A stretch of DNA of 64,000 bases from Allocoleopsis franciscana PCC 7113. Lineage in GTDB: Bacteria > Cyanobacteriota > Cyanobacteriia > Cyanobacteriales > Coleofasciculaceae. This document shows, in pieces, positions 17,196-61,039 of the stretch. Every line of letters begins with the position of its first letter. Positions within the stretch are counted from its first letter, which is position 1. The stretch is taken from contig NC_019738.1 in assembly GCF_000317515.1 (NCBI RefSeq), positions 4,428,001 through 4,492,000 of the forward strand, written 5' to 3'. The notes under the pieces are model-generated. The model ran no database searches, was not told the origin of the DNA, and saw only the letters and a program-made list of their open reading frames with translations. Made by a program: the position numbers and the translations under genes.

Positions 17196-17291
17196 TCAAA
17201 ATAGGTCAACGTAGACGCCATGATGGTCACTCACCGATTTACCATCAGGGGTAAAGCCTTGCCAAGTATTCACTTGCTTGACTCGCTCTGC
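17196..17291 (-). pseudogene. 3' fragment of the endonuclease/exonuclease/phosphatase gene split by the transposon
   Basis: Read on the minus strand from the target duplication, this stretch encodes ERVKQVNTWQGFTPDGKSVS then DHHGVYVDLF and stops at 17196-17198. The SDHHGVYVDL end is the conserved C-terminal Ser-Asp-His motif of EEP-fold nucleases, which the 5' fragment at 22742-23355 lacks. Joining the two across one copy of TCTGC restores an open frame (DWAERVKQ). Confidence 0.9.
17287..17291. repeat. Target-site duplication, left copy (TCTGC)
   Basis: The five bases TCTGC directly before the left terminal repeat are repeated directly after the right terminal repeat at 22742-22746. A 5-bp duplication is the Tn7-family signature. 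Confidence 0.9.
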
Positions 17292-17337
17292 TGTCACTTG
17301 AACCATATTCTGTCCAAAGTGGAAGCATAAGCTGTCC
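17292..17337. repeat. Left terminal inverted repeat of the Tn7-like element
   Basis: The repeat begins TGTCACTTGAACC and ends CATAAGCTGTCC. It differs from the right repeat only at its positions 18 and 41. The AT-rich 155 bp between it and tnsAB probably holds more TnsB sites, for example around CCATAAGTTGG (about 17402). Confidence 0.92.
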
Positions 17338-17492
17338 GGCAACAAGGGAAAAACTCTGATGCTGTCGTAGGAACAACAGCGGCTAGAGCAGCCAGGTAGA
17401 ACCATAAGTTGGCCGTAAGTTGAAAGGGGAAGGATAAGATGTCCTTGAGTTGATAAACTGACAATATCCTCCCATTGCTGCCAGAGAAAAAA

Positions 17493-18779
17493 ATGCTGGA
17501 CGGCGAACAGTTTGTGCGGTGGTGCCAGCAGCTCGGCTTGGCAGAATCGGCAAGGCAATACATCGAACTGTTACGCAGTTCGCCACCTGCGCGTGTGGTA
17601 CGCAGTAGGGCAGGCAACGTGAGTGGTCGTTACCCCAGTCGGAAAATGGGCGTGACGATTCAATTTGAGAGCCACCACAACGAATTGGCAGGCATCTATG
17701 AAATGGAATATGACCCAGATGTGCTGGAATATTACGATCAACCCAGGGGGCTTAAACTTAGCTATCAAGCTCTGTGTGGTCGGAAAGTAGGAGTCCTGCA
17801 TACCCCAGATTTCTTCGTGTTGCGCCAAACATCTGCTGGCTGGGAAGAGTGGAAAACACTTGATGAATTAGTGCGATTATCAGCTAAGATGCCTGCTCGC
17901 TACGTGAAAGAAATTGAAGGTCAATGGCACTGTCCCCCAGGAGAAGAAGTAGCACAAAGCTTGGGATTATATTATCGCATCCGCTGCAACGCTGAAATTG
18001 ACTGGGTTTTCCAAAATAATCTTCATTTTCTCGAAGACTACTTGCAGCCGTCCCATTTGGATCTAGAAGAGAACGTTCGTGCCAACATCACATTACTGGT
18101 AGAACTTCATCCAGGAATTACCTTAGGTGAATTGCTACAACAGGGGTACAACTGTGACGAGGTTTATACCCTAATTGCCCAAAATCATTTAAAGGTGAAT
18201 TGGCGAGGTGTCAACATAGCGCAACTTGGTTCACAGCGTCAAATCTTTCCGGCTAGTCAGAAAGTTTGTCAAACCGAAACAACCAAGTGGAGAAGAGCAT
18301 CAACCTTAGAATTAGCCCCTAACTTAGTTGACCTAAAACCTGGTTCTCCTGTGGTGTGGAATGGAAAAAGCTTATCGATTCTCAATCGGGGAGAAACCCA
18401 TACAGCCCTACTCAATGAAGAGGAAAAAGTCATCCAACTGCCCAACGTTGCCCTATTGGAATTAGTCAAACAGGGTGAGTTAACAGGTGTTGTCACCCAC
18501 TCCTTACCATCTGCAAAAGAAGTCAATGACCTTTTAGCCAAGGCTAGCGTCGATGATTGTGCACAAGCCAACCGCCGCTATTCCATCATTGCTCCCTACC
18601 TAACGGGTGAACTCCAAACCTCAAATCAGGTCGTCAGTACACGTACAATTCGCCGTTGGTTGCATTCGTGGCAAAAAGCCCAAGAGCAATATGGATGTGG
18701 TTATGTAGGTTTATTGCCTCGCGTCAGCTCTAAAGGTAATCGCCAATCCAAATTACCGGAAGCGACACAAAAATCGTAG
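17493..18779 (+). CDS. tnsA: TnsAB, first part: TnsA endonuclease domain plus TnsB N-terminal region
   Basis: I start at ATG 17493 (MLDGEQFVRWCQQLGL), not TTG 17475, because this matches usual TnsA starts. Residues about 45-150 form the TnsA restriction-endonuclease-like fold: the Glu in SHHNELAGIYE, the Asp in HTPDFFVLR, and the EEWK Lys triad. A TnsA C-terminal helical domain follows, and from about residue 185 TnsB DNA-binding domains. TnsA nicks the 5' ends so the element is cut out rather than copied. The frame stops at TAG 18777-18779, directly after ACACAAAAATCG. Adding one A there restores a continuous TnsAB protein, so this is a frameshifted half. Confidence 0.9.
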   Translation: MLDGEQFVRWCQQLGLAESARQYIELLRSSPPARVVRSRAGNVSGRYPSRKMGVTIQFESHHNELAGIYEMEYDPDVLEYYDQPRGLKLSYQALCGRKVGVLHTPDFFVLRQTSAGWEEWKTLDELVRLSAKMPARYVKEIEGQWHCPPGEEVAQSLGLYYRIRCNAEIDWVFQNNLHFLEDYLQPSHLDLEENVRANITLLVELHPGITLGELLQQGYNCDEVYTLIAQNHLKVNWRGVNIAQLGSQRQIFPASQKVCQTETTKWRRASTLELAPNLVDLKPGSPVVWNGKSLSILNRGETHTALLNEEEKVIQLPNVALLELVKQGELTGVVTHSLPSAKEVNDLLAKASVDDCAQANRRYSIIAPYLTGELQTSNQVVSTRTIRRWLHSWQKAQEQYGCGYVGLLPRVSSKGNRQSKLPEATQKS

Positions 18780-20191
18780 ACGAATTCATTGCTAACAACT
18801 ATCTAAATCTCAAACAGCAAGGAAAATTCGCCGTTTACAGTTCACTGGTACGAGCCTGTGAACAGCAAGGGATTACTCCTTGTAGCTACAAAACATTTGT
18901 CCGAAACATTCATCAAAAATCTAACTATGAACAGGCTTTGAAAAGGCAGGGGCGTAGGGCGGCTTACAAGCACGAACCTTTTTATTGGGAGCTAGAGGTA
19001 AACACCCCTAGGCACGGACAACGACCCTTTGAAATCTGCCATATTGACCATACACAATTAGATATTGAGCTAGTTAGCTCCCACACATCAGTAAATCTGG
19101 GTCGCCCTTGGGCTACCTTCCTAACAGACGCTTACTCACGACGAATACTAGCCGTTTATCTGTGTTTTGACCCACCGTCCTACCGTAGTTGCATGATGGT
19201 AATGCGCGAGTGTGTCCGTCGTCACGGACGCTTGCCCCACACGATAGTGGTGGATGGAGCCAAAGAATTCATGAGTGTTTACTTCGAGCGGCTACTAGCC
19301 GCTTACTCTTGCACGAAGAAAACCCGACCAGCGGCTAAACCCCGATTTGGTTCAGTATGCGAACGCTTGTTCGGGACAGCCAACACCATGTTGATTCACA
19401 ATCTCCAGGGAAATACGCAAATTAACAAGAATTCTAGGGCTGTGACGAAAAGCGTTAATCCCCGTAATTTAGCTATTTGGACGCTGGGGAGTTTGTATCA
19501 GAATCTATGCGATTGGGCTTATGAATTTTACGACAACAAGGAGCATCCGGCACTCTTGAAAAGCCCAAGAGCAGCTTTTTCAGATGGCTTGTTGCAAACC
19601 GGATTGCGCCCACATAAACTGATTCCTTACGATGAAACCTTTCGGATTTTGACCCTACCAACAACATCCAAAGGAACTGCCAAAGTCATTCCTAATCAAG
19701 GAGTCAAAATTAACCACATCTACTATTGGCATAATAGTTTTCGGAATCCGGAAATTGAAAAGACTCAAGTTCTCGTGCGCTATGACCCAAATGATGTTGG
19801 GATTGCCTATGCCTACATAAAAGGTCAGTGGGTAAATTGCATCTCGCAGCACTATAGTAGCTTAGCGGGTCACTCAGAGCGAGAAATGATAGCAGCAAGC
19901 GTCCAGTTGCGTCAACAACATAAGAATCACTCCAAACAATTTACAATCACAGCCAAAGCCCTCGCTGAATTTCTAGCAAGTACAGAAGCCCAAGAAGTTA
20001 TCTTAGAGCAACGCTTACGGGATGTAGAAGCCAAAGAGGTTTTAGCAATAATTGATGGAGTCAAAATGAAGCGACCTGAAGAACAGCCTCCAGCCTCCGA
20101 GTGCCTTTCACTTCCTATAAGTCGAGAAACCTCTCCTAATAGAGATGAGATTGATTCTGAAGAAATTGAACCTTATGAGGAGTTTTGGTAA
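18770..20191 (+). CDS. tnsB: TnsAB, second part: TnsB DDE transposase domain
   Basis: This frame is open from 18770 and continues the TnsB sequence after the frameshift (KIVDEFIANNYLNLKQQGKF). The first ATG-like start is only at 18938. The RNase H-like catalytic core has Asp in CHIDHTQLDIEL, Asp in IVVDGAKEF, and Glu in RFGSVCERLFGT. A beta-barrel domain follows (about NQGVKINHIYYWHN), then a C-terminal tail rich in charged residues that would contact TnsC. TnsB binds the ends and joins 3' ends to target DNA. Stop TAA 20189-20191 overlaps the tnsC ATG. Whether any full TnsAB is made depends on bypassing the frameshift. Confidence 0.9.
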   Translation, partial: KIVDEFIANNYLNLKQQGKFAVYSSLVRACEQQGITPCSYKTFVRNIHQKSNYEQALKRQGRRAAYKHEPFYWELEVNTPRHGQRPFEICHIDHTQLDIELVSSHTSVNLGRPWATFLTDAYSRRILAVYLCFDPPSYRSCMMVMRECVRRHGRLPHTIVVDGAKEFMSVYFERLLAAYSCTKKTRPAAKPRFGSVCERLFGTANTMLIHNLQGNTQINKNSRAVTKSVNPRNLAIWTLGSLYQNLCDWAYEFYDNKEHPALLKSPRAAFSDGLLQTGLRPHKLIPYDETFRILTLPTTSKGTAKVIPNQGVKINHIYYWHNSFRNPEIEKTQVLVRYDPNDVGIAYAYIKGQWVNCISQHYSSLAGHSEREMIAASVQLRQQHKNHSKQFTITAKALAEFLASTEAQEVILEQRLRDVEAKEVLAIIDGVKMKRPEEQPPASECLSLPISRETSPNRDEIDSEEIEPYEEFW

Positions 20192-20403
20192 TGCCCTCTG
20201 CCAAGCATTTTCCTCCAGAACTCTTAGCTGCAACTCCAGCGGAGAAATTGGCTTACTTTGAAAGTTGTACGGTAGTACACAGGCAATTAAAAATTGCTTA
20301 TGAAGCTGTAATAGATGCCGTCAATAATCCTGGAGGAGCTTCATTAATCTTTTGTTTGGTCCTACCGGGGTGGGGAAAACAACCTTACTCCATCAAGTTG
20401 TGA
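20191..20403 (+). pseudogene. tnsC: TnsC, N-terminal fragment before a frameshift
   Basis: ATG 20191 overlaps the tnsAB stop (TAATG) and has GAGGAG nine bases upstream, so it is the real tnsC start. The frame encodes the TnsC N-terminus up to NNPGGASLIF, then drops out of phase just before Walker A and stops at 20403. The break lies at ATCTTTTGTTTGG: one more T or G would give a continuous LIF-x-FGPTGVGKTT. Confidence 0.85.
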
Positions 20404-21377
20404 AAGTGCTAATAGAGCAGAACTCCAGAGCTATGCAACTTGATTGTGGGCATATTCCTGTTGCTTATGTAGAAGCTCGCGCTCCCGAATCCGGGTCTTT
20501 CGACTGGAAAGATTATTATAAAAGCGTCTTGATAGCTTTAGCTGACCCCTTCGTTGATTATAAACTCAGAACTGGCAGTAGCCGAATTGAGGGCAGGGGT
20601 TCGGCTCAACGTCTAGTTAAATCAAGAGCCAACCTTTCAGATTTACGAGAGGATGTAGCCGCAATTATCCAACAACGTCGGTTAATTGTATTTCTAGTTG
20701 ATGAAGCCCAACGCTTCACTAAAATGGCATCGGGACGAAGACAACAAGACCAAATGGATGCCATTCAGTCAATGGCAAGTTTCACGTCCACCCGACACGG
20801 ACTTTTTGGCACTTATGAACTGCTACAGTTAAGAAATTTAAGCGGTCAATTGAGCCGCCGCAGTTTAGATATTCACTTTCCTCGTTATCAAGCGGATTGC
20901 TCACAGGACGTTAAAGATTTCAAACGGGTACTCAAAAGCTTTGCCTGCCAAATGCCCTTGTTAGAAGTCCCTGATTTAGAGCAGCATTGGGAATACTTTT
21001 ACGAACGCAGTATCGGTTGTGTCGGGATAGTGAAAGATTGGCTGACACAAGCTTTGAGAAAAGCGTTGGGAGAATCAGCCTCTACCCTGAGCTTGGCACA
21101 TCTTACACCTTATGCTCCCAGTGTTTCTAAATGTATGCAAATGGCAACTGAGGCGATAGAAGGTGAGAAAGCGCTGCTCCAATCGGAGAGCGAACTGAGC
21201 CGATTGCGTCAAAAATTGGGATTAACTGTTAAGGAGCCACCAACAGCAACAGAAGCCTTGCTCAATAGCCCGACCCGTTCTACGGCTAATAAAAAAGACA
21301 AGAAAACAAAGAAACGTCGTCCGGGAGAGCGTAATCCTCAACGGGATGTCATCGGAGGCGCTCCCAGTGTCAGTTGA
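20352..21377 (+). CDS. tnsC: TnsC, AAA+ ATPase part after the frameshift
   Basis: This frame carries the AAA+ core: Walker A FGPTGVGKTT at its start, Walker B IVFLVDEAQRF (about residue 117) and the sensor region GLFGTYELLQLRNLSGQLSRR. C-terminal helices and a Lys/Arg-rich tail ending KKDKKTKKRRPGERNPQRD follow. TnsC forms ATP-dependent filaments on target DNA and links the target selector TniQ to TnsAB. It overlaps the tniQ start by 32 bp. The frame has no proper start of its own; the N-terminus is in the preceding fragment. One lost base is enough to explain the split. Confidence 0.9.
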   Translation: MFGPTGVGKTTLLHQVVKVLIEQNSRAMQLDCGHIPVAYVEARAPESGSFDWKDYYKSVLIALADPFVDYKLRTGSSRIEGRGSAQRLVKSRANLSDLREDVAAIIQQRRLIVFLVDEAQRFTKMASGRRQQDQMDAIQSMASFTSTRHGLFGTYELLQLRNLSGQLSRRSLDIHFPRYQADCSQDVKDFKRVLKSFACQMPLLEVPDLEQHWEYFYERSIGCVGIVKDWLTQALRKALGESASTLSLAHLTPYAPSVSKCMQMATEAIEGEKALLQSESELSRLRQKLGLTVKEPPTATEALLNSPTRSTANKKDKKTKKRRPGERNPQRDVIGGAPSVS

Positions 21378-22590
21378 AAGCTGGAGTAATCATCAACTGT
21401 GGTATTCAAAAACCACAACAATTCCAGAGCGTAGCCGCCTGCATCCTCTTGAACCCATCGGTGTAGGAACGCCGACAGTAGAGAGTTTAACCAGTTATGT
21501 GGCTCGGTTGGCAGCAGCTCATCGAGTACCTACGGGTATTTTGCTAGCTCAAGAAGTCGCTCAACAAGTCAGTAGATATCAGGGCAATCAGCATCAAGGG
21601 TTATCCAGATGGTTTTTCCGTGTCTTTTTCAACGATACGGGGGCCTGGAATGGCATGGGAATTATGGCATCTGAGCCAGTTCATGTGTTAGAAGCACGAA
21701 CCAAGCAGCATCAGTTACGGTTTCTCACTTTGTTACGTTGGGCTAACGTTTTACCGTCACGAGGTTTACTTCGTACCAACAAGGCTTGGTGTCCCGTGTG
21801 CTATGACGATTGGGAGCGTTGTGGCAAACCCATCTACGAGCCTTTATTATGGTCGCTCCAGGTAGTGACAACTTGTCCTGTTCATCAACAAGTTTTATGG
21901 CATCAATGTCCCAATTGTCGGCGGTCGCTCTACCCTCTAGAGTGGAATTCCCGACCGGGTTTCTGCTCTAGATGCCAACAGTGGTTGGGTGTGAGTTCAT
22001 TTTTGAGTACAGGCGAGACCTCTTTTGATGCTTCCCCAGTAGAGCCACCTGATTGGGAATGGCAGATTTTTGTTGTGTACTCCGTGGGAAAAATTCTAGA
22101 GCAAGCACCTTTTCTTGAGTCTGTGCCAGCTAGAGAAAATCTGGCATTTTGTATTGACTTATGTATTCAAAAAGCTACCAACGGTAATGCTAAAGCTTTT
22201 GCTGAGTTAATGTACCTGAGTGCTTCCGTACCAGGAGAATGGCGATGTGGTCAAGCACTGGCACAATTAGGTTTGCTCTTACGAGTTTGTTGGTGTCTTT
22301 CTATTCCTTTAGTTGATTTCCTCACTGGCCGGGTAGTGATTGAGCAACCGCTATCGTTGAAGGTTTTGCCTATCACTCAACAAAGGAGAAAAACTAATCG
22401 GCGCTTTGATGCGCTGAAAGTACAAATGTTTTTAGAGGCAGCTTTGTCTTTTGAACCACCCCAGTCTCTCAAGCAAGTGGCTGCTACTATTGGATACGAC
22501 CCTGGCGATATCTCCCGATTTTTCCCAGACTTGTGCCACCAAATTTCCGCTCGTTACAGATTATACCGACAAGCAATCAGAAAGTCCTAG
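21346..22590 (+). CDS. tniQ: TniQ/TnsD-family target-selection protein
   Basis: The 414-residue protein has the TniQ N-terminal domain (ESLTSYVARLAAAHRVPTGILL, about 44-65). Zinc-finger pairs follow: AWCPVCYDDW, TTCPVHQQ and QCPNCRRSLYPLEW to FCSRCQQWLG (about 145-225). A helical C-terminal part ends with a helix-turn-helix-like segment (SLKQVAATIGYDPGDISRFF, about 370-389). It is longer than the short TniQ of CRISPR-associated elements and nearer TnsD, so it probably recognises target DNA directly. The frame is intact, unlike tnsAB and tnsC. Which DNA it recognises is unknown; here the element sits inside a protein gene. Confidence 0.9.
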   Translation: MSSEALPVSVESWSNHQLWYSKTTTIPERSRLHPLEPIGVGTPTVESLTSYVARLAAAHRVPTGILLAQEVAQQVSRYQGNQHQGLSRWFFRVFFNDTGAWNGMGIMASEPVHVLEARTKQHQLRFLTLLRWANVLPSRGLLRTNKAWCPVCYDDWERCGKPIYEPLLWSLQVVTTCPVHQQVLWHQCPNCRRSLYPLEWNSRPGFCSRCQQWLGVSSFLSTGETSFDASPVEPPDWEWQIFVVYSVGKILEQAPFLESVPARENLAFCIDLCIQKATNGNAKAFAELMYLSASVPGEWRCGQALAQLGLLLRVCWCLSIPLVDFLTGRVVIEQPLSLKVLPITQQRRKTNRRFDALKVQMFLEAALSFEPPQSLKQVAATIGYDPGDISRFFPDLCHQISARYRLYRQAIRKS

Positions 22591-22695
22591 CTATAATAAT
22601 GCCATTCCCCAAGTCTATCTCCAGGTACTCGCAAGCGGTTCAAGTCTAGTTACCTCGTCCCACCACGTCGAAGTATAAAGTGACCACAGTTTTTT

Positions 22696-22741
22696 GGACA
22701 ACTTATGCTTCCACTTTGGACAGGATATGGTTCAAGTGACA
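22696..22741. repeat. Right terminal inverted repeat of the Tn7-like element
   Basis: Its reverse complement begins TGTCACTTGAACCATATCC and matches the left repeat at 44 of 46 positions. The TGT...ACA ends are typical of Tn7 relatives. Confidence 0.92.
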
Positions 22742-23355
22742 TCTGCCCAGTCTTTGCTGAAACAAATGTGGTCAATGTTGAATGGAATCTTATCGGTAAC
22801 ACAAACAAGGTCGTTTTCTTGTAGTGCCTCACTCAACATGTTCCGTCCTTGATGGGTTCCGTATCCAGTCAAACCACTCAGCGTTTGGTTAAAGTCACCC
22901 GCTACACATAAGGGCAAACCTTGATTCAGTTTTGCCCAATCCTGACAATGAGATGCGATCGATTTGTAATGTTCTTGCCACTTCTTCGCTGTCCCTGTTG
23001 GGCCTTTATCGTTTGCCCAAGTAATAATGGTTCCATAGACGAGAAAGTGAGCAAGCGGCGCTAAAATTTCAGCGCACACAGCAATTGAAGGATCGAAAGT
23101 GGGAAACGTCCTCCCGATTGGGTAGCGAGACCAAATAGTTGAACAATTTTCTCCAGGATTATGATATTCAGATATTGGAGATGTGGCAATTTTTGAGTAA
23201 TTATTTTTGGGATTGATAACACGATTGGTCTCAGTGAGTATCCAAATATCAGCGTTTATTTCATCAATTTGTTCCTGAATTATCGGATTTTTTTTCCAAC
23301 CTCCAAGCTTTGGACGCTCAAGATTCCAGGTCGCAATTCTCATAGATTTTGGCAT
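22732..23355 (-). pseudogene. Endonuclease/exonuclease/phosphatase family protein, 5' fragment
   Basis: The 207-residue remnant starts MRIATWNLERPKLGG after MPKS, the typical EEP start. It keeps ADIWILTETNRV (metal-binding Glu), AGDFNQTLSG and the NIDHICFSKDW segment before the C-terminus. The last two codons (V, T) and the stop come from the transposon end. The missing SDHHG-type motif is preserved at 17196-17291. The intact gene would encode about 240 residues, a soluble Mg-dependent nuclease or phosphatase of unknown substrate. Without the C-terminal His it should be inactive. Confidence 0.9.
22742..22746. repeat. Target-site duplication, right copy (TCTGC)
   Basis: TCTGC directly follows the ACA end of the right repeat and matches the bases before the left repeat. 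Confidence 0.9.
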
Positions 23356-54868: not shown

Positions 54869-55345
54869 GTGTTTGTGCCTAACGAAACTCAGAGCCACTT
54901 AAGTATCTTGGTTCTGCATGGTCCAAATCTCAACCTATTAGGACGCCGAGAGCCAGGAATCTACGGTTCGGTTACCTTGGGCGAGATTAACGATCGGCTA
55001 GAACAGGAAGGGCAAAAGCTACAGGCTAAAGTCAATGCCCTGCAATCCAATCATGAAGGTGTCTTGGTTGATGCGATTCATGATGCTTTAGGTCAGCATC
55101 AAGGAATATTAATCAATGCTGGTGCCTATACTCACACTAGCGTAGCGCTGCGCGATGCCTTGACAGCAGTCGCCATTCCTACTGTAGAGGTTCACCTAAG
55201 CAATATCTATCAGCGAGAAGCCTTCCGGCATCACTCTTTCATCGCTCCTGTAGCGATCGGACAGATTAGTGGTTTTGGTGCAGACAGTTATAGATGGGGA
55301 CTCCAGGCTTTAGTAAATCACTTGAGAAAGTTGGCTAGTCGTTAA
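54869..55345 (+). CDS. aroQ: 3-dehydroquinate dehydratase, type II
   Basis: The 158-residue protein (GTG start 54869) has [20 protein letters not shown] with the catalytic Tyr, [35 protein letters not shown] and [20 protein letters not shown] with the catalytic His. It makes dehydroshikimate in the shikimate pathway. It sits 8 bp after a small-protein gene, and the two probably form an operon. Confidence 0.97.
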
Positions 55346-55427
55346 ATCATTATCCAATTGTTAAATCATTATTAAATTATCGCACATAAGTTGACCGCTT
55401 GAGGGTCAGGAACTCTGCGATGTAAGC

Positions 55428-56624
55428 TTAACACTCGCTGGAAATAGCGATCGGCAAAATCACTGTAAATGTAGAGCCGACACTCAATTGAGAAACTAGT
55501 TTAATCTCTCCTTGGAGTATCTGTACGAGGCGAGAGACAATCGCCAGACCTAAGCCAGTGCCTTCTTGGTGGCGAGGTCCCTGGTTAAAAACGGCTTGTG
55601 AGTAAGGTTGAAAAATGTGGTCTCTATCTTCTGGGGCAATTCCAATGCCCGTATCACTTACAGCGAGAGACCACTTCTGGTCGGGTAAACTCTGACAAAT
55701 CACTTGAATCGAGCCAATCTCTGTATAGCGAATCGCATTGCTCAAGAGATTGGTCAAAATTTGCTGTAAACGAAATGAATCTGAGAAAACCTGCTCAGGA
55801 GCGCCTTCCTCATCAATCTTTAACTCTAAACCTTTAGCTTGCGCCAAGGGATTCAAGATTTCGCTGACTACCGCCATCATTGAATGGACATCGATCCACT
55901 CTAGATTCAGCTTAATTTGATTGGCTTCATAGCGCGACAATTCCAGGGAATCATTGACAATATGGAGCAGATGCCGCCCTCCTTGCAGAACTCGCTCAAT
56001 ACTGCGAAGACTCAAAGAGTCTGACTCTGCGCTAAGTTTCTCTTGTTGTAAGCGCTGGAGCAGTTCAGAATAACCAATGACAGCCGTTAGGGGTGTCTTT
56101 AACTCATGAGCCAGGTAGGATAAATTATCTTTACTGGATTCAACCAGACGATTAAGTTCCTGGTTCGTGAGGGTCAACTGACTCTGTATCTGCTCTAATT
56201 CATTGAGACGCTCTTGTACATAGCTCTTATAGCATACGGAAATGGCTTCATCTAGCACCGTATTGATTTTGCTAAAAAGTAGAATAATCTCTTCAGGAGA
56301 GCCTTTGAGACAGTGAGGCGCTAGTACTGCAAAAATAGTTCGACGTAAGAGACTGTACTCTTGAGCAATTTCGTCAGCCTCATATCCTTGTTTCGCTCGT
56401 AACCGACCGTGTTCTAAACTTCCATCAGCAATCTTTTTAAAGTTTTTCTGAGAATGTGCGAGTACTGCGGCTAGGGATTTAAGAAGCTTGGGCAGCGAGT
56501 TACCCAGAGCTGTATCAGACAAGTTAATTGAGCTTTCTATGCGGCGATCTTGACGAACTTCTTCCATCCATTTCTCTATGATGGACTCAGCTTTTTCAGC
56601 GATAATTTGGCTAATATTTAGCAT
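55428..56624 (-). CDS. Sensor histidine kinase with RsbRD-type N-terminal domain
   Basis: The 398-residue soluble kinase has an N-terminal helical domain (1-140; IIEKWMEEVRQDRRIESS, HGRLRAKQGYEADEIAQEYS) like RsbRD_N, then a coiled coil and the HisKA H-box SYLAHELKTPLTAVIGYSELL (H near 175). The HATPase follows: N-box LQQILTNLLSNAIRYTE, G1 VSDTGIGIAPED, F-box IFQPYSQAV, G2 EGTGLGLAIVSRL. No TM and no receiver. RsbRD_N domains bind small ligands such as haem in some relatives. The cognate regulator is not adjacent. Confidence 0.92.
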   Translation of the reverse strand: MLNISQIIAEKAESIIEKWMEEVRQDRRIESSINLSDTALGNSLPKLLKSLAAVLAHSQKNFKKIADGSLEHGRLRAKQGYEADEIAQEYSLLRRTIFAVLAPHCLKGSPEEIILLFSKINTVLDEAISVCYKSYVQERLNELEQIQSQLTLTNQELNRLVESSKDNLSYLAHELKTPLTAVIGYSELLQRLQQEKLSAESDSLSLRSIERVLQGGRHLLHIVNDSLELSRYEANQIKLNLEWIDVHSMMAVVSEILNPLAQAKGLELKIDEEGAPEQVFSDSFRLQQILTNLLSNAIRYTEIGSIQVICQSLPDQKWSLAVSDTGIGIAPEDRDHIFQPYSQAVFNQGPRHQEGTGLGLAIVSRLVQILQGEIKLVSQLSVGSTFTVILPIAISSEC

Positions 56625-56954
56625 GGATTCCCTTGAGTAGTCGATTTGGCGCTTCGGGATGATGTAAAGTGCGTTCGCTCCAATAAGCCCATGCTCCCGG
56701 TGACGAAAGCAACTCTTCTTAAGACTACCCGTTTAGAGATTGTTGTTCACTTCTGAGTTAAAAACCCGCTAAACTAGCCAGGTTCTAGACCTGCCCAATT
56801 GACTATTAGTCAAAAAAGGAGAAGTGCTACCCTAGATTAAGTGACCCACTGGTTCTGTAACTTCTAGCTGAAGATAGGTCATTCCCCCGATCAGTTTTGC
56901 CATACTAGGACAGAAATCAGTTAAGTAATGTAGGTTAACCGGTCACAGAAATTG
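56625..56954. other. Divergent intergenic region
   Basis: This stretch of about 330 bp carries the promoters of the kinase (minus) and of the glycohydrolase-like gene (plus). No gene, RNA or obvious repeat is seen. Confidence 0.4.
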
Positions 56955-57914
56955 ATGAGGTATTCACTTTTAAGCCGGTTTCAAGGTGCATTACTGGGCA
57001 GCTTAGTGAGAGAAATGCTGCTTCCTAAGGGCAGCCAGGGTCAGGTTTTGGGTGGAGTTTCCCTTACATCGCCCAAGCAGGAAGACGCTCAAACCCTTCA
57101 ACAGCTTTCTGTATGGAACCAGCTAGCGACTTGCGGGATAGAGAGTTTAATTCGTTGTGGCAGGTTGAATTTAGAAGATTGGTGGTTGCTTTTGGAGAAG
57201 ACGCCGTCATCTCTCGGTTTAAAATCTGTTCCTAGCATGAGTGAGTCCGCCTTGGCGACGATACCCATTGCCCTGTTCTTTCATGAGGATGAGGTTAAGC
57301 TGCGCCAACAACTGTTCACCTGTCAAGACCTTTGGCAACATCAAGCTGAGGCATCAGAAGGAGTTTTAGCGATCGCTTATGCCCTCTCACTGGCTCTCAG
57401 GGAACAGCTTGATTATGCTACCTTAATTCCTCGAATCCAAATTTATGTAGGAAATCTAGAAACCTCTCAAAGCCCTCTAATGAGGCAACTGGAACAAGTG
57501 CAAATGCTACTGAAGAAGGGAGCCGGATTAGAGACAACCCTCACCCAATTACGTCGAGACGCCCAAATTCGAGGCGAACCCTTGGGGCGTGCCCACACTT
57601 CTATTGCCCTCGCCTTCTACTGTTTCCTCTCCACTCCAGAGGATTTTCGCCTCGCTGTCAGTCGTGCGGCTCGTACCGGCTACCAACCCCAGATCACGGT
57701 TGCCCTGACTGGCGCTTTGGCTGGGGCTTATAATAGCATCATTGGTATTCCTGTAAACTGGCGTCTGACAGCCAACCGTATCAGTAGCGGCAACCAACAT
57801 CTGCAACTAGCAGACCGACTGCTTGAGGTTTGGGCAGGTGTGTATGATGTGTCAGCGTTAGGGCAGGGTCAGCCTTTAGCGGTGGCAGCACCACAAGTGA
57901 TTCAGCCTCGATAA
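56955..57914 (+). CDS. ADP-ribosylglycohydrolase-fold protein
   Basis: The 319-residue helical protein starts RYSLLSRFQGALLGSLVREML, the typical DraG-like opening, and ends with GYQPQITVALTGALAGAYNSI then GIPVNWRL, matching the fold's last helices. The usual metal-binding DD/SDDT residues are not evident (GCRLN-type loops are replaced, and the ALTGALAGAYNS site lacks the expected Asp pair). It may therefore be an inactive or divergent member, as is common in cyanobacteria. No signal peptide or TM. Partner unknown. Confidence 0.75.
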   Translation: MRYSLLSRFQGALLGSLVREMLLPKGSQGQVLGGVSLTSPKQEDAQTLQQLSVWNQLATCGIESLIRCGRLNLEDWWLLLEKTPSSLGLKSVPSMSESALATIPIALFFHEDEVKLRQQLFTCQDLWQHQAEASEGVLAIAYALSLALREQLDYATLIPRIQIYVGNLETSQSPLMRQLEQVQMLLKKGAGLETTLTQLRRDAQIRGEPLGRAHTSIALAFYCFLSTPEDFRLAVSRAARTGYQPQITVALTGALAGAYNSIIGIPVNWRLTANRISSGNQHLQLADRLLEVWAGVYDVSALGQGQPLAVAAPQVIQPR

Positions 57915-58028
57915 CCACTGTGATCAGTCAACCGTTACAGGACAAAGACTACAAATGCCACGTTCTTTCGCCTTAAATCTTGAGAACCCATACCTTAACG
58001 CTCATTGATTCGTTCTCGAAAGAAGGGA

Positions 58029-58197
58029 GCGACTATCTGTGCAGGATTAAGCGAATCCTACAGTAGCCAGAGCGAAAACCGATCAGAACCCAAGTCAAAG
58101 GGGAGTCGCCAAGAATTCAGCCAAAAAGCCAGGATGTCGTAAGGGTTTTCGAGAAGGAGTTTGCCCCTCTGAACCTTGCCAGGGAACGGTTACAGGG
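58029..58197. other. Candidate structured RNA in the leader region before the 7TM-HD gene
   Basis: In the 608-bp gene-free region 57915-58522 several helices can form: GCGACT (58029-58034) with AGTCGC (58104-58109), and inside it CTA/CTGT/AGGATT (about 58033-58048) with AATCCT/ACAG/TAG (58054-58066). Further on, CCCT/AACC (58165-58175) pairs with GGTT/AGGG (58188-58197). The structure lies about 330 bases before the downstream gene. I do not recognise its family, and the strand is uncertain. A frame at 58176-58388 is not convincing as a gene. Confidence 0.35.
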
Positions 58198-58522
58198 TAA
58201 TCATGAAAAACTTTGTCAATCAAAAATTAGCGTCGGAAATCTTAATTTTATTTTCCCTATCTCGATCCTACCTCAAGAGCCAGACTGTCACACTGATAGG
58301 CAGTAAGGTTAAATCGGTCAGCTATGGTAGTCAAGGCAATAAAACCCCAATGGATTTCAATAGGGTATTTCCCGCTCTCATTTTGTAAGGTAAAAAGAAG
58401 TGAACTCAAAATTTACACGATGTAATTTAAGAAAAGCTAAATAGGAGTGTTCTATCTGAAATCACAGCCAGAGCCTTGCTTTCCCCACCGCTATCGTCAC
58501 CTGAAATGGCAAATCTTGTGCT

Positions 58523-61039
58523 ATGAAAACGTTTCATTCGTTGACACAGCCGCTGATGCATTTGCGGCGAACACCTGAGCAACTTCGCGCTTGGTTGTCA
58601 TTTAGGGTGTCTAACTCCTCTAACCAGACCGTAGACGCGATTCATCATGTCTCTACGGGAAGCAAAACCTTAGTGGATGAAGCCATGCATTCACAACCGT
58701 TGCCTGGATTACCAACCAAGCGCCGTAAGCCCAAAAGCCGTCCACCCGTGATGTGGCTAGTGGCTGTGGTTTCTCTCACCAGTGCGATGGGGAACCGATT
58801 CTACAATCAGCCAAAGCTGGATGTGGGTACGATAGCTCCACAAACGCTCCGGGCACCCAGTCCTGTTAGTATTGAAGACACGAAAACCACAGAGGAAAAG
58901 CGTAAGGCCGCCCGTACAGGTGCTGTCCCTGTGTTGATGTTTGACCACTCGCTCACCCAAGATCTGATTCAGGCGATTGAGCAATCTCTGGAAAGGGTGG
59001 AAGAATTGCGCCAAATGTGTGGCCCTTATCCCTTTGCAGAGGCGACGATTCTCTCAGAGGCAACCCAGCGCTATCTGCGCCAAATTACGGAACCAGAGTG
59101 GCAGGAAATTTTAGCGCAAGTCGATAGCCTTCAAAGTACCCAGCCGGCTGCTCCAACCCTGGTACTACCCGATCAGGCTGTACAGGCACCTAATCTGCCG
59201 TTGACTCAAGCCGTTAAAGAACTGCAACGCTACCGTCAACTGTCTTCTCCTCAAGCTTTTTCAGATCTGATTGAGTCGATTTCCTTGGCTCGTCAGGGTT
59301 ACGTTGTAGCATTGCGTCAGCTTTCCGAGCTGCAACGCGCTGAATCTGGTCGTCGCTACGATGCTTCATTGCTGGAACTCTCAGATCAGGACTGGCAGGA
59401 GACACGCAAGGGTATCATCCAGGCGTCCAAGCTCATCCTGACTCAGGGCATTCCTCCAGGACTCCCGTCAAATATTTTAATGGAAGCGGTGAGGCTGCAA
59501 TTGAGTTCCTTCGTCCCCCAAAAGGCCGAGCCTGTAGCGGTTCCACTGCTGACCAATATTTTGCAGCCTAACTTAAAAGAAGATAAAGAAGAGACGAAGC
59601 GAAGAGCGGAACAAGCCGCACAGGCCGTAGATCCAGTCATGGTCTCCGCACAGCAGGGTGAGGTGATTGTCTATGCTGGAGAGCAAATCAATCAGGCGGA
59701 TTTTGTGTTGCTGGATCACTTCAAATTGAGCCGTCGGGAAATTAACTCCCATGGTCTAATTGGATTCGGCATTTTTGTGAGCGGAGGTCTGGTTATCTTT
59801 TGGCTAGTAGAACGGCGTGTGCATCCTAGGCTCAGACGGCGTGACCACATTTTGCTGTGGCTGCTGGCATTGAGCACACCGCTACTGGTCATCTTGAACA
59901 TTTCTTATACAGACTTGCCTGCCATTGGTTTGTTAGTCGGCAGCTTTTACAGCCCTGCTTTGGGAGTAACCGTTGTCAGTCTGCTGACGGGGTTAGTGGG
60001 CTTTGGTATGAAGGTGAGTTGGGATTACTTACTTGCCGGTTCTGCCGCTGGTTTGCTCGGTTCTTGGATGGCTGGGCGGATGCGATCGCGTGAGGAACTA
60101 GCTTGGCTGGGGGGTTTTGTTGGGCTAACTCAGGGCGGAGTCTACCTGCTCTTAAATCTTGTCCCTAGTGCGGCTGTGGGTGCAGTTTGGTATACCGTAC
60201 TCCAAGAGGCCGTTATATCCAGTTTGGCCGGTTTGTCTTGGACTGTGGTAGCCCTAGGGATATCACCTTACCTAGAACGTCTGTTTGACTTAGTTACTCC
60301 CATTCGTCTAGCTGAGCTGGCTAATCCTAATCGTCCTTTGCTCAAGAAACTAGCCACGGAAGCACCTGGCACGTTTCAACACACCCTATTTGTGGCGTCC
60401 CTAGCAGAAGCTGCCGCCCGCGAACTCCACTGTAACGTTGAGCTGGTCAGGGCTGGCACACTCTACCACGATATTGGTAAAATGCACGATCCATTAGGAT
60501 TTATTGAAAATCAGATGGGGAGTCCCAACAAACACGACGAGATTAATGACGCTTGGAAGAGTGCTGAGATTATCAAAAAACACGTTTCAGAAGGATTGGT
60601 GATGGCTCGTAAGCACCAGCTACCTCAGGCCATTCGTGACTTTATCCCAGAACATCAGGGAACGCTGCTCATCTCCTATTTTTATTTTCAGGCTAAACAG
60701 AAAGCTGAACAAGAAGGAGGTTCTCCTGTAGACGAGAAAGACTTTCGCTATGATGGCCCAGTTCCCCAGTCGCGAGAAACAGGTATTGTCATGCTGGCGG
60801 ATGCTTGTGAAGCCGCACTGCGAAGTCTCAAGGACGTTACCACAGAAACGGCTGTTGGGATGATTCATAAAATCCTCAAAGCTCGCTGGCAAGACAACCA
60901 GCTCGTCGATTCCGGGATAACACGGGAAGAATTGTCAACCATTGCCGAGGTTTTTGTCCGAGTTTGGCAACAATGTAATCACAAACGGATTGCTTATCCG
61001 AAAGCTGCACTCAATGATCAGCCATCAGTGAACAGTTGA
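58523..61039 (+). CDS. 7TM-HD family phosphohydrolase (PgpH-like)
   Basis: The 838-residue protein has an N-terminal TM (PVMWLVAVVSLTSAMGN, about 75-92), a large extracytoplasmic 7TMR-HDED domain (about 95-405), seven TM helices (about 412-615) and a cytosolic HD domain (about 625-800). HD landmarks are TFQHTLFVASLAEAAARELH, AGTLYHDIGKMHDP (the HD pair), ENQM, PEHQGTLLISYFY and DACEAALRSL. PgpH relatives hydrolyse c-di-AMP, and all metal ligands look intact, so control of c-di-AMP, turgor and K+ balance is likely. It is preceded by a long gene-free leader with structured elements. Confidence 0.95.
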   Translation: MKTFHSLTQPLMHLRRTPEQLRAWLSFRVSNSSNQTVDAIHHVSTGSKTLVDEAMHSQPLPGLPTKRRKPKSRPPVMWLVAVVSLTSAMGNRFYNQPKLDVGTIAPQTLRAPSPVSIEDTKTTEEKRKAARTGAVPVLMFDHSLTQDLIQAIEQSLERVEELRQMCGPYPFAEATILSEATQRYLRQITEPEWQEILAQVDSLQSTQPAAPTLVLPDQAVQAPNLPLTQAVKELQRYRQLSSPQAFSDLIESISLARQGYVVALRQLSELQRAESGRRYDASLLELSDQDWQETRKGIIQASKLILTQGIPPGLPSNILMEAVRLQLSSFVPQKAEPVAVPLLTNILQPNLKEDKEETKRRAEQAAQAVDPVMVSAQQGEVIVYAGEQINQADFVLLDHFKLSRREINSHGLIGFGIFVSGGLVIFWLVERRVHPRLRRRDHILLWLLALSTPLLVILNISYTDLPAIGLLVGSFYSPALGVTVVSLLTGLVGFGMKVSWDYLLAGSAAGLLGSWMAGRMRSREELAWLGGFVGLTQGGVYLLLNLVPSAAVGAVWYTVLQEAVISSLAGLSWTVVALGISPYLERLFDLVTPIRLAELANPNRPLLKKLATEAPGTFQHTLFVASLAEAAARELHCNVELVRAGTLYHDIGKMHDPLGFIENQMGSPNKHDEINDAWKSAEIIKKHVSEGLVMARKHQLPQAIRDFIPEHQGTLLISYFYFQAKQKAEQEGGSPVDEKDFRYDGPVPQSRETGIVMLADACEAALRSLKDVTTETAVGMIHKILKARWQDNQLVDSGITREELSTIAEVFVRVWQQCNHKRIAYPKAALNDQPSVNS

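Follow-up and report, generated by a model that had tools for sequence, protein, structure and literature searches.

The window analysed here is a 64,000-nucleotide stretch of the genome of Allocoleopsis franciscana PCC 7113 (NC_019738.1, positions 4,428,001 to 4,492,000; the genome comprises 9 contigs, 7.97 Mb), and it carries a small transposon inserted in a gene of the EEP fold. The element proper occupies 17292-22741 (5450 bp) and is bounded by 46-nt inverted ends (17292-17337 and 22696-22741), 44/46 identical (96%), with a 5-bp target-site duplication (TSD), TCTGC, on both sides, as an earlier note on this DNA had described; the span given there, 17287-22746, holds as the footprint of the insertion and includes the TSDs. 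The ends read TGT...ACA and carry a repeated 21-bp motif, presumably TnsB sites, with four occurrences on the left and three on the right, so that the termini, the several TnsB-type repeats per end and the 5-bp TSD are all those of a Tn7-like element. Open-reading frame (ORF), Pfam and repeat checks found no cargo, cas genes, Cascade ORF or guide array between the ends, and there is no tRNA gene within the window. The features are as follows.

17196-17291, minus strand: EEP-fold gene, 3' part (ERVKQ...SDHHGVYVDLF), matching the uninterrupted frame in a genome of the same genus (G001)
17287-17291: TSD TCTGC, left copy, present as a single copy in the G001 empty site
17292-17337: left terminal inverted repeat, 46 bp, beginning TGTCACTTGAACC
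17295-17315, plus strand: putative TnsB site L1, CACTTGAACCATATTCTGTCC, iterated 21-bp motif
17317-17337, plus strand: putative TnsB site L2, AAGTGGAAGCATAAGCTGTCC, iterated 21-bp motif
17394-17414, plus strand: putative TnsB site L3, AGGTAGAACCATAAGTTGGCC, iterated 21-bp motif
17424-17444, plus strand: putative TnsB site L4, AAGGGGAAGGATAAGATGTCC, iterated 21-bp motif
17493-20191, plus strand: tnsAB, frameshifted at A5 (18769-18773); Pfam Tn7_TnsA-like_N, rve, Mu-transpos_C
20191-21377, plus strand: tnsC (AAA+ ATPase), frameshifted at T4 (20350-20353), just before Walker A; Pfam AAA_22/TniB
21346-22590, plus strand: tniQ/tnsD, 414 aa, predicted target selector; Pfam TniQ
22665-22685, plus strand: putative TnsB site R3, ACGTCGAAGTATAAAGTGACC, 21-bp motif inverted relative to R1 and R2
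22696-22741: right terminal inverted repeat, containing putative TnsB sites R2 (22696-22716) and R1 (22718-22738)
22742-22746: TSD TCTGC, right copy
22747-23355, minus strand: EEP-fold gene, 5' part; Pfam Exo_endo_phos
22777-22789, plus strand: sequence resembling the tail of a CRISPR (clustered regularly interspaced short palindromic repeats) repeat, GTTGAATGGAATC, ending 43 nt past the TSD

The insertion and the identity of the element

Joining the flanks by script, less the element and one TCTGC, restores one uninterrupted EEP-family frame (...KDWAERVKQ...SDHHGVYVDLF), as the note had proposed. The empty site expected in a close strain was found in G001, where the alignment is gapless over the junction, TCTGC is single and fcl is likewise the neighbour; the insertion is therefore real and its empty site exists. 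The G001 EEP gene carries an unrelated internal deletion of its own.

The element had been called complete, which does not hold for the window copy: tnsAB is in two pieces and tnsC is split, with A5 and T4 where two further copies on contig C3 of the same genome and one in Coleofasciculus sp. LEGE 07092 (G009) have A6 and T5. The two single-base losses may be mutations or homopolymer sequencing errors. The Coleofasciculus copy is intact (TnsAB 898 aa, TnsC ~396 aa, TniQ 414 aa). Programmed frameshifting at the A-run was rejected, because the C3 and Coleofasciculus copies are in frame with A6/T5.

All three proteins find their homologues in PmcCAST (Tn7744), a type I-B2 CRISPR-associated transposon (CAST): TnsAB matches PmcCAST TnsAB (PDB 9bw1 chain M, residues 5-897, E 9e-299), TnsC matches PmcCAST TnsC (PDB 8fcu and 9g0f, E 5e-95 for 8fcu) and TniQ matches PmcCAST TnsD (PDB 8v32, residues 16-412, profile E 1e-101). 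An AlphaFold model of TniQ was poor (pLDDT, a predicted confidence score, of 43) and was set aside in favour of this homology to a solved TnsD. The TnsA endonuclease and TnsB DDE transposase are fused, and a TnsC AAA+ regulator and a TniQ/TnsD selector accompany them, as in Tn7-like elements of the TnsAB-fusion type; the element-borne Cascade and guide array of type I-B2 and I-D CASTs are absent. Judged by homology, the TniQ is a full-length TnsD, and the window element is best explained as a minimal Tn7-like transposon from the tRNA-homing lineage with fused TnsAB out of which type I-B2/I-D CASTs also arose, in line with the earlier view of it as a Tn7-like, cargo-free and CRISPR-free member of the TnsAB-fusion lineage. 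It resembles PmcCAST in an equal-length TnsAB fusion, in TnsC and TnsD homologous over about their full length and in a TnsD that would guide insertion at a fixed distance, but it lacks the Cascade, second TniQ, CRISPR array and cargo.

Copies in CRISPR arrays and the shared repeat tail

Tn7-like elements are known to employ CRISPR systems as guides. The window element appears instead to treat CRISPR arrays as a target, as DNA read by a protein. Two copies, one base apart and 5108 bp each, lie on contig C3 (92,471 bp, probably a plasmid) at G000:C3:30612-35719 (L018:6613-11720) and 55228-60335 (L019:7229-12336); they have the end repeats of the window copy, as the note had predicted for any other copies, and each has its own 5-bp TSD (CCTTC and ATAAA). 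Both are apparently non-autonomous, sharing a 348-bp deletion which removes the TnsAB C-terminus and the start of tnsC. Since neither their sites nor their TSDs are the same, it is very likely that one copy or both transposed once the deletion had arisen, probably with proteins provided in trans. A TnsAB-TnsC fusion through the deletion was rejected, as the two genes are in different frames: tnsAB ends prematurely and tnsC is left without its start. Differences between the window and C3 copies crowd into the first 450 bp (17309-17747), with 17748-22741 almost identical, a pattern that suggests recombination or gene conversion between copies.

Both C3 copies interrupt CRISPR spacers. Their two arrays differ in repeat; the copies share one orientation, and each TSD stops 8 nt short of the repeat that follows. 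Subtracting the element and one TSD leaves spacers of 39 and 38 nt and a period of 75. C3 has five arrays, which make up ca. 2.9 kb (~3.5%) of the 82 kb left when the element copies are set aside, and genes matching Cas1d, Cas4d, Cas3, RT-Cas1, Cas10 and Csm3; an Rfam search of C3 pieces gave no match. The chance of both copies falling in arrays with a register within 1 nt and like orientation is ~3e-5, by arithmetic from array counts with the first hit allowed to set the register.

The search was extended to a sample of 389 genomes from the order and repeated from another centre. Close relatives (TniQ 90-91%) are confined to two of these genomes, Coleofasciculus and the metagenome-assembled genome (MAG) UBA8803 (G019), and no further copies were found in the viral contigs and plasmids searched. 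In Coleofasciculus (TniQ identity 91%) the insertion is upstream of an SDR gene and outside arrays, with TSD CTATC. In G019, the copy on contig C107 lies between CRISPR repeats (CTTCCCACTCGCTGGGAAACCAACTTGAATGGAAAC), and at its right junction the repeat tail finishes 43 nt beyond the first five bases; on contig C480 a left end lies in an array of a fourth repeat type, with 24 nt and the TSD between it and the repeat (26 and 25 nt in the C3 copies), in the orientation of the C3 copies. Four different repeat types are thus used across the array insertions of C3 and G019. Another contig, G018:C366, has a left junction only and was not scored. Inside the left end of the C480 copy (L153/L160, ~300-400) there is a second Tn7-like end, GCAAGCTTATACTTTAAGTCACA abutting CAAGC; it resembles those of the tRNA-homing relatives and marks another Tn7-like element nested in this copy.

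On the tniQ-side flank the repeat tail ends 44 nt (C3 copy A), 45 nt (C3 copy B) and 43 nt (G019) past the TSD. The two sites outside arrays carry a similar sequence at the same place, GTTGAATGGAATC at 43 nt in the window and AAGGGGAAGGAAAC at 44 nt in Coleofasciculus; the window sequence agrees with the G019 CRISPR repeat tail CTTGAATGGAAAC in 11/13 positions, at equal distance. We built a weight matrix from the three array repeats only and scanned ~85 bp of flank on either side at widths 10-24. The top match in either flank fell at 43 nt in the window and at 44 nt in Coleofasciculus at every width, with site-specific p of ~2e-4 and ~4e-5, respectively, at widths 10-12, the window value weakening to ~2e-2 at widths of 20 or more. 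(One pattern, AANGGGGANNGAAAC, was mistyped and is used in no result.) A repeat-tail match at sites without an array argues for sequence recognition and not for recruitment by the array or Cas proteins. The copies' target sites have a sequence in common, a CRISPR repeat tail or look-alike 43-45 nt past the TSD, a point that the note had proposed to check, and its suggestion of a protein-gene target or of random insertion gives way to a fixed register in arrays and a repeat-tail-like sequence at the EEP site.

These data bear on two other explanations. The first is near-random insertion, with arrays merely tolerating insertions so that copies there survive. The window and Coleofasciculus copies lie outside arrays and sister elements in genome G152 lie in ordinary genes, as it would have them, but both C3 copies sit in the ~3.5% of sequence that is array, with the same 8-nt register and like orientation, a combination expected by chance at ~3e-5, and the non-array sites bear the repeat-tail-like sequence at equal distance; we regard this explanation as highly improbable. 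The second holds that the Cas machinery, CRISPR RNA (crRNA) or a folded or extruded repeat recruits the element, without TnsD reading repeat DNA. Array insertions do agree in register and orientation, several Cas systems are encoded on C3, and in CASTs TniQ acts with Cascade (PMC10293859). However, the element has neither cas genes nor an array, four different repeats are used, its TniQ is a long TnsD-type protein, and two non-array sites keep the spacing with only a repeat-tail-like sequence, which leaves such recruitment improbable.

Several observations weigh against recognition of the repeat tail. The motif length was picked after the sites were seen, the informative insertions number six, from three genomes only, and two of the six (window and Coleofasciculus) are outside arrays. 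The C107 copy in G019 is anomalous on its left side (L058, 4515), where the junction is 7 nt after the repeat (flank GGAAAC-TAAATCC-CTAGT) and there is no shared TSD (CTAGT left vs. CGTCA right), which a simple model leaves unexplained, whereas 5-bp TSDs match in four copies (window, two on C3, Coleofasciculus); a rearrangement or mis-assembly of the MAG is possible. Finally, the sister elements in G152 and G164 (51-55% TniQ identity) are outside CRISPR arrays and show no clear motif. The G152 element is apparently multi-copy, with insertions in ordinary genes. It is 5180 bp long (G152:C193, L064, and contigs L080-L085), and contigs break off precisely at its termini; no fewer than three junctions were seen for each end, apparently in genes, and among the six found no TSD matched between left and right.

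Relation to tRNA-homing elements and the proposed re-targeting

In the TnsAB-fusion branch, TnsD proteins target different tRNA genes and TniQ partners have been exchanged (reviews, PMC11406308), and CyCAST homes 30-33 nt from the tRNA end (PMC10293859). We examined 38 more distant TnsD loci, mostly at 35-44% identity. A tRNA gene (Val, Ala, Leu or Thr) lies within 900 bp beyond tniQ in 25 of the 38, on the same side as the repeat tail, with every such gene on the element's minus strand. In relatives with a callable end, 46-50 nt, mostly 47-48, separate the TSD from the end of the T-arm GGAYTYGAAC. In side, single orientation and nearly equal spacing, the TnsD-recognised site of the relatives thus corresponds to the repeat tail. 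The tail also resembles the T-arm, weakly by score, and PmcCAST TnsD intercalates at a CC/GG step and so bends its att DNA (PMC12585508); the CRISPR repeat tails contain such a step too.

It might then be that TnsD keeps its T-arm specificity and strikes repeats because their tails resemble the T-arm (GGAYTYGAAC vs. GGAYKGAAAC). Side and orientation are indeed shared, the spacing is close (43-45 vs. 46-50 nt), and a T-arm matrix gives p=0.002 at C3 copy B and 0.015-0.035 at copy A. Yet no copy of this clade was found at a tRNA gene, with none ~30 nt from the tniQ-side end in any flank read of the clade, and the T-arm matrix fits the window and Coleofasciculus sites poorly (p ~0.04-0.28), the repeat matrix well; we give retained T-arm specificity little credence. 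In the tree, the CRISPR clade and the sisters in G152 and G164 form one fully supported group nested among tRNA-homing TnsDs, consistent with one re-targeting. Given that those sisters lie outside arrays, present data limit the preference for CRISPR to the closest clade. A periodicity scan of ~40 wider loci flagged L097, L098, L116, L118 and L133. Family-wide CRISPR targeting was not supported: L118 alone reads as a clear array, away from the element junction, and L097, L098 and L118 have tRNA targets. L133 (AP018284.1, a plasmid of Chondrocystis sp. NIES-4102) is a decayed tnsAB-tnsC relative with many short ORFs and no tniQ listed alongside.

We therefore favour, at a probability of roughly 0.78, a TnsD of PmcCAST type (I-B2 lineage) whose target has shifted from tRNA genes to the conserved CRISPR-repeat 3' end. 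Such a TnsD would bind this end as DNA (GGATGGAAAC, GGACTGAAAC or TGAATGGAAAC), the portion that becomes the 5' handle of the crRNA, and would recruit TnsC; TnsAB would then insert the element with its tniQ-side end towards the bound repeat, making a 5-bp duplication 43-45 nt from the motif end, so that the insertion would land in a spacer, ~8 nt upstream of a repeat. We infer that TnsD is the reader of the repeat-tail motif, that arrays are the element's normal home, and that the EEP gene is an off-target site carrying a look-alike, this last because the C3 copies lie in arrays at a fixed register and a repeat-tail-like sequence lies at that distance. We also lean, with less assurance, to the broader proposal that a Tn7 lineage swapped tRNA homing for CRISPR repeats, with arrays of several types that have a GGAYKGAAAC-like tail serving as dedicated multi-copy landing sites.

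The clade would thus differ from PmcCAST in its target, a CRISPR repeat or look-alike in place of a tRNA gene. The tRNA-homing cyanobacterial TnsAB/TnsD elements, including the type I-D CASTs CyCAST and McCAST, share its protein family, target side and orientation, but have tRNA targets and several have two tniQ genes, whilst the window clade goes with CRISPR repeats and is ~5.4 kb. As with Tn7 TnsD at attTn7, a sequence-specific TniQ-family protein would steer TnsABC to near its bound site (PMC2918618), although attTn7 is one conserved chromosomal gene end and the site of this clade is a multi-copy immune-memory repeat. Prophages of Streptococcus pyogenes also integrate at CRISPR loci (Varble 2021, cited in PMC10359306), with unrelated machinery and not as Tn7-like transposons at a set distance from repeats. 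In a literature search that left out the most pertinent survey of cyanobacterial Tn7-like elements, no description of CRISPR-repeat homing by a Tn7-like element came to light.

If the proposal is right, insertion severs leader-distal spacers from the leader and may blunt host immunity, which would be another route for transposons to damage or colonise adaptive immunity loci. It would also show how TnsD specificity can shift, from tRNA T-arm to repeat tail, with the geometry kept, and would provide a natural pair for mapping the determinants of that specificity, together with a 5.4-kb TnsAB/C/D set free of cargo. The genome of the window holds six further, divergent TniQ genes (G000 C1:935662, C1:952227, C8:18949, C1:4226939, C1:5632914 and C1:6900491), so it probably contains several other Tn7-like elements as well.

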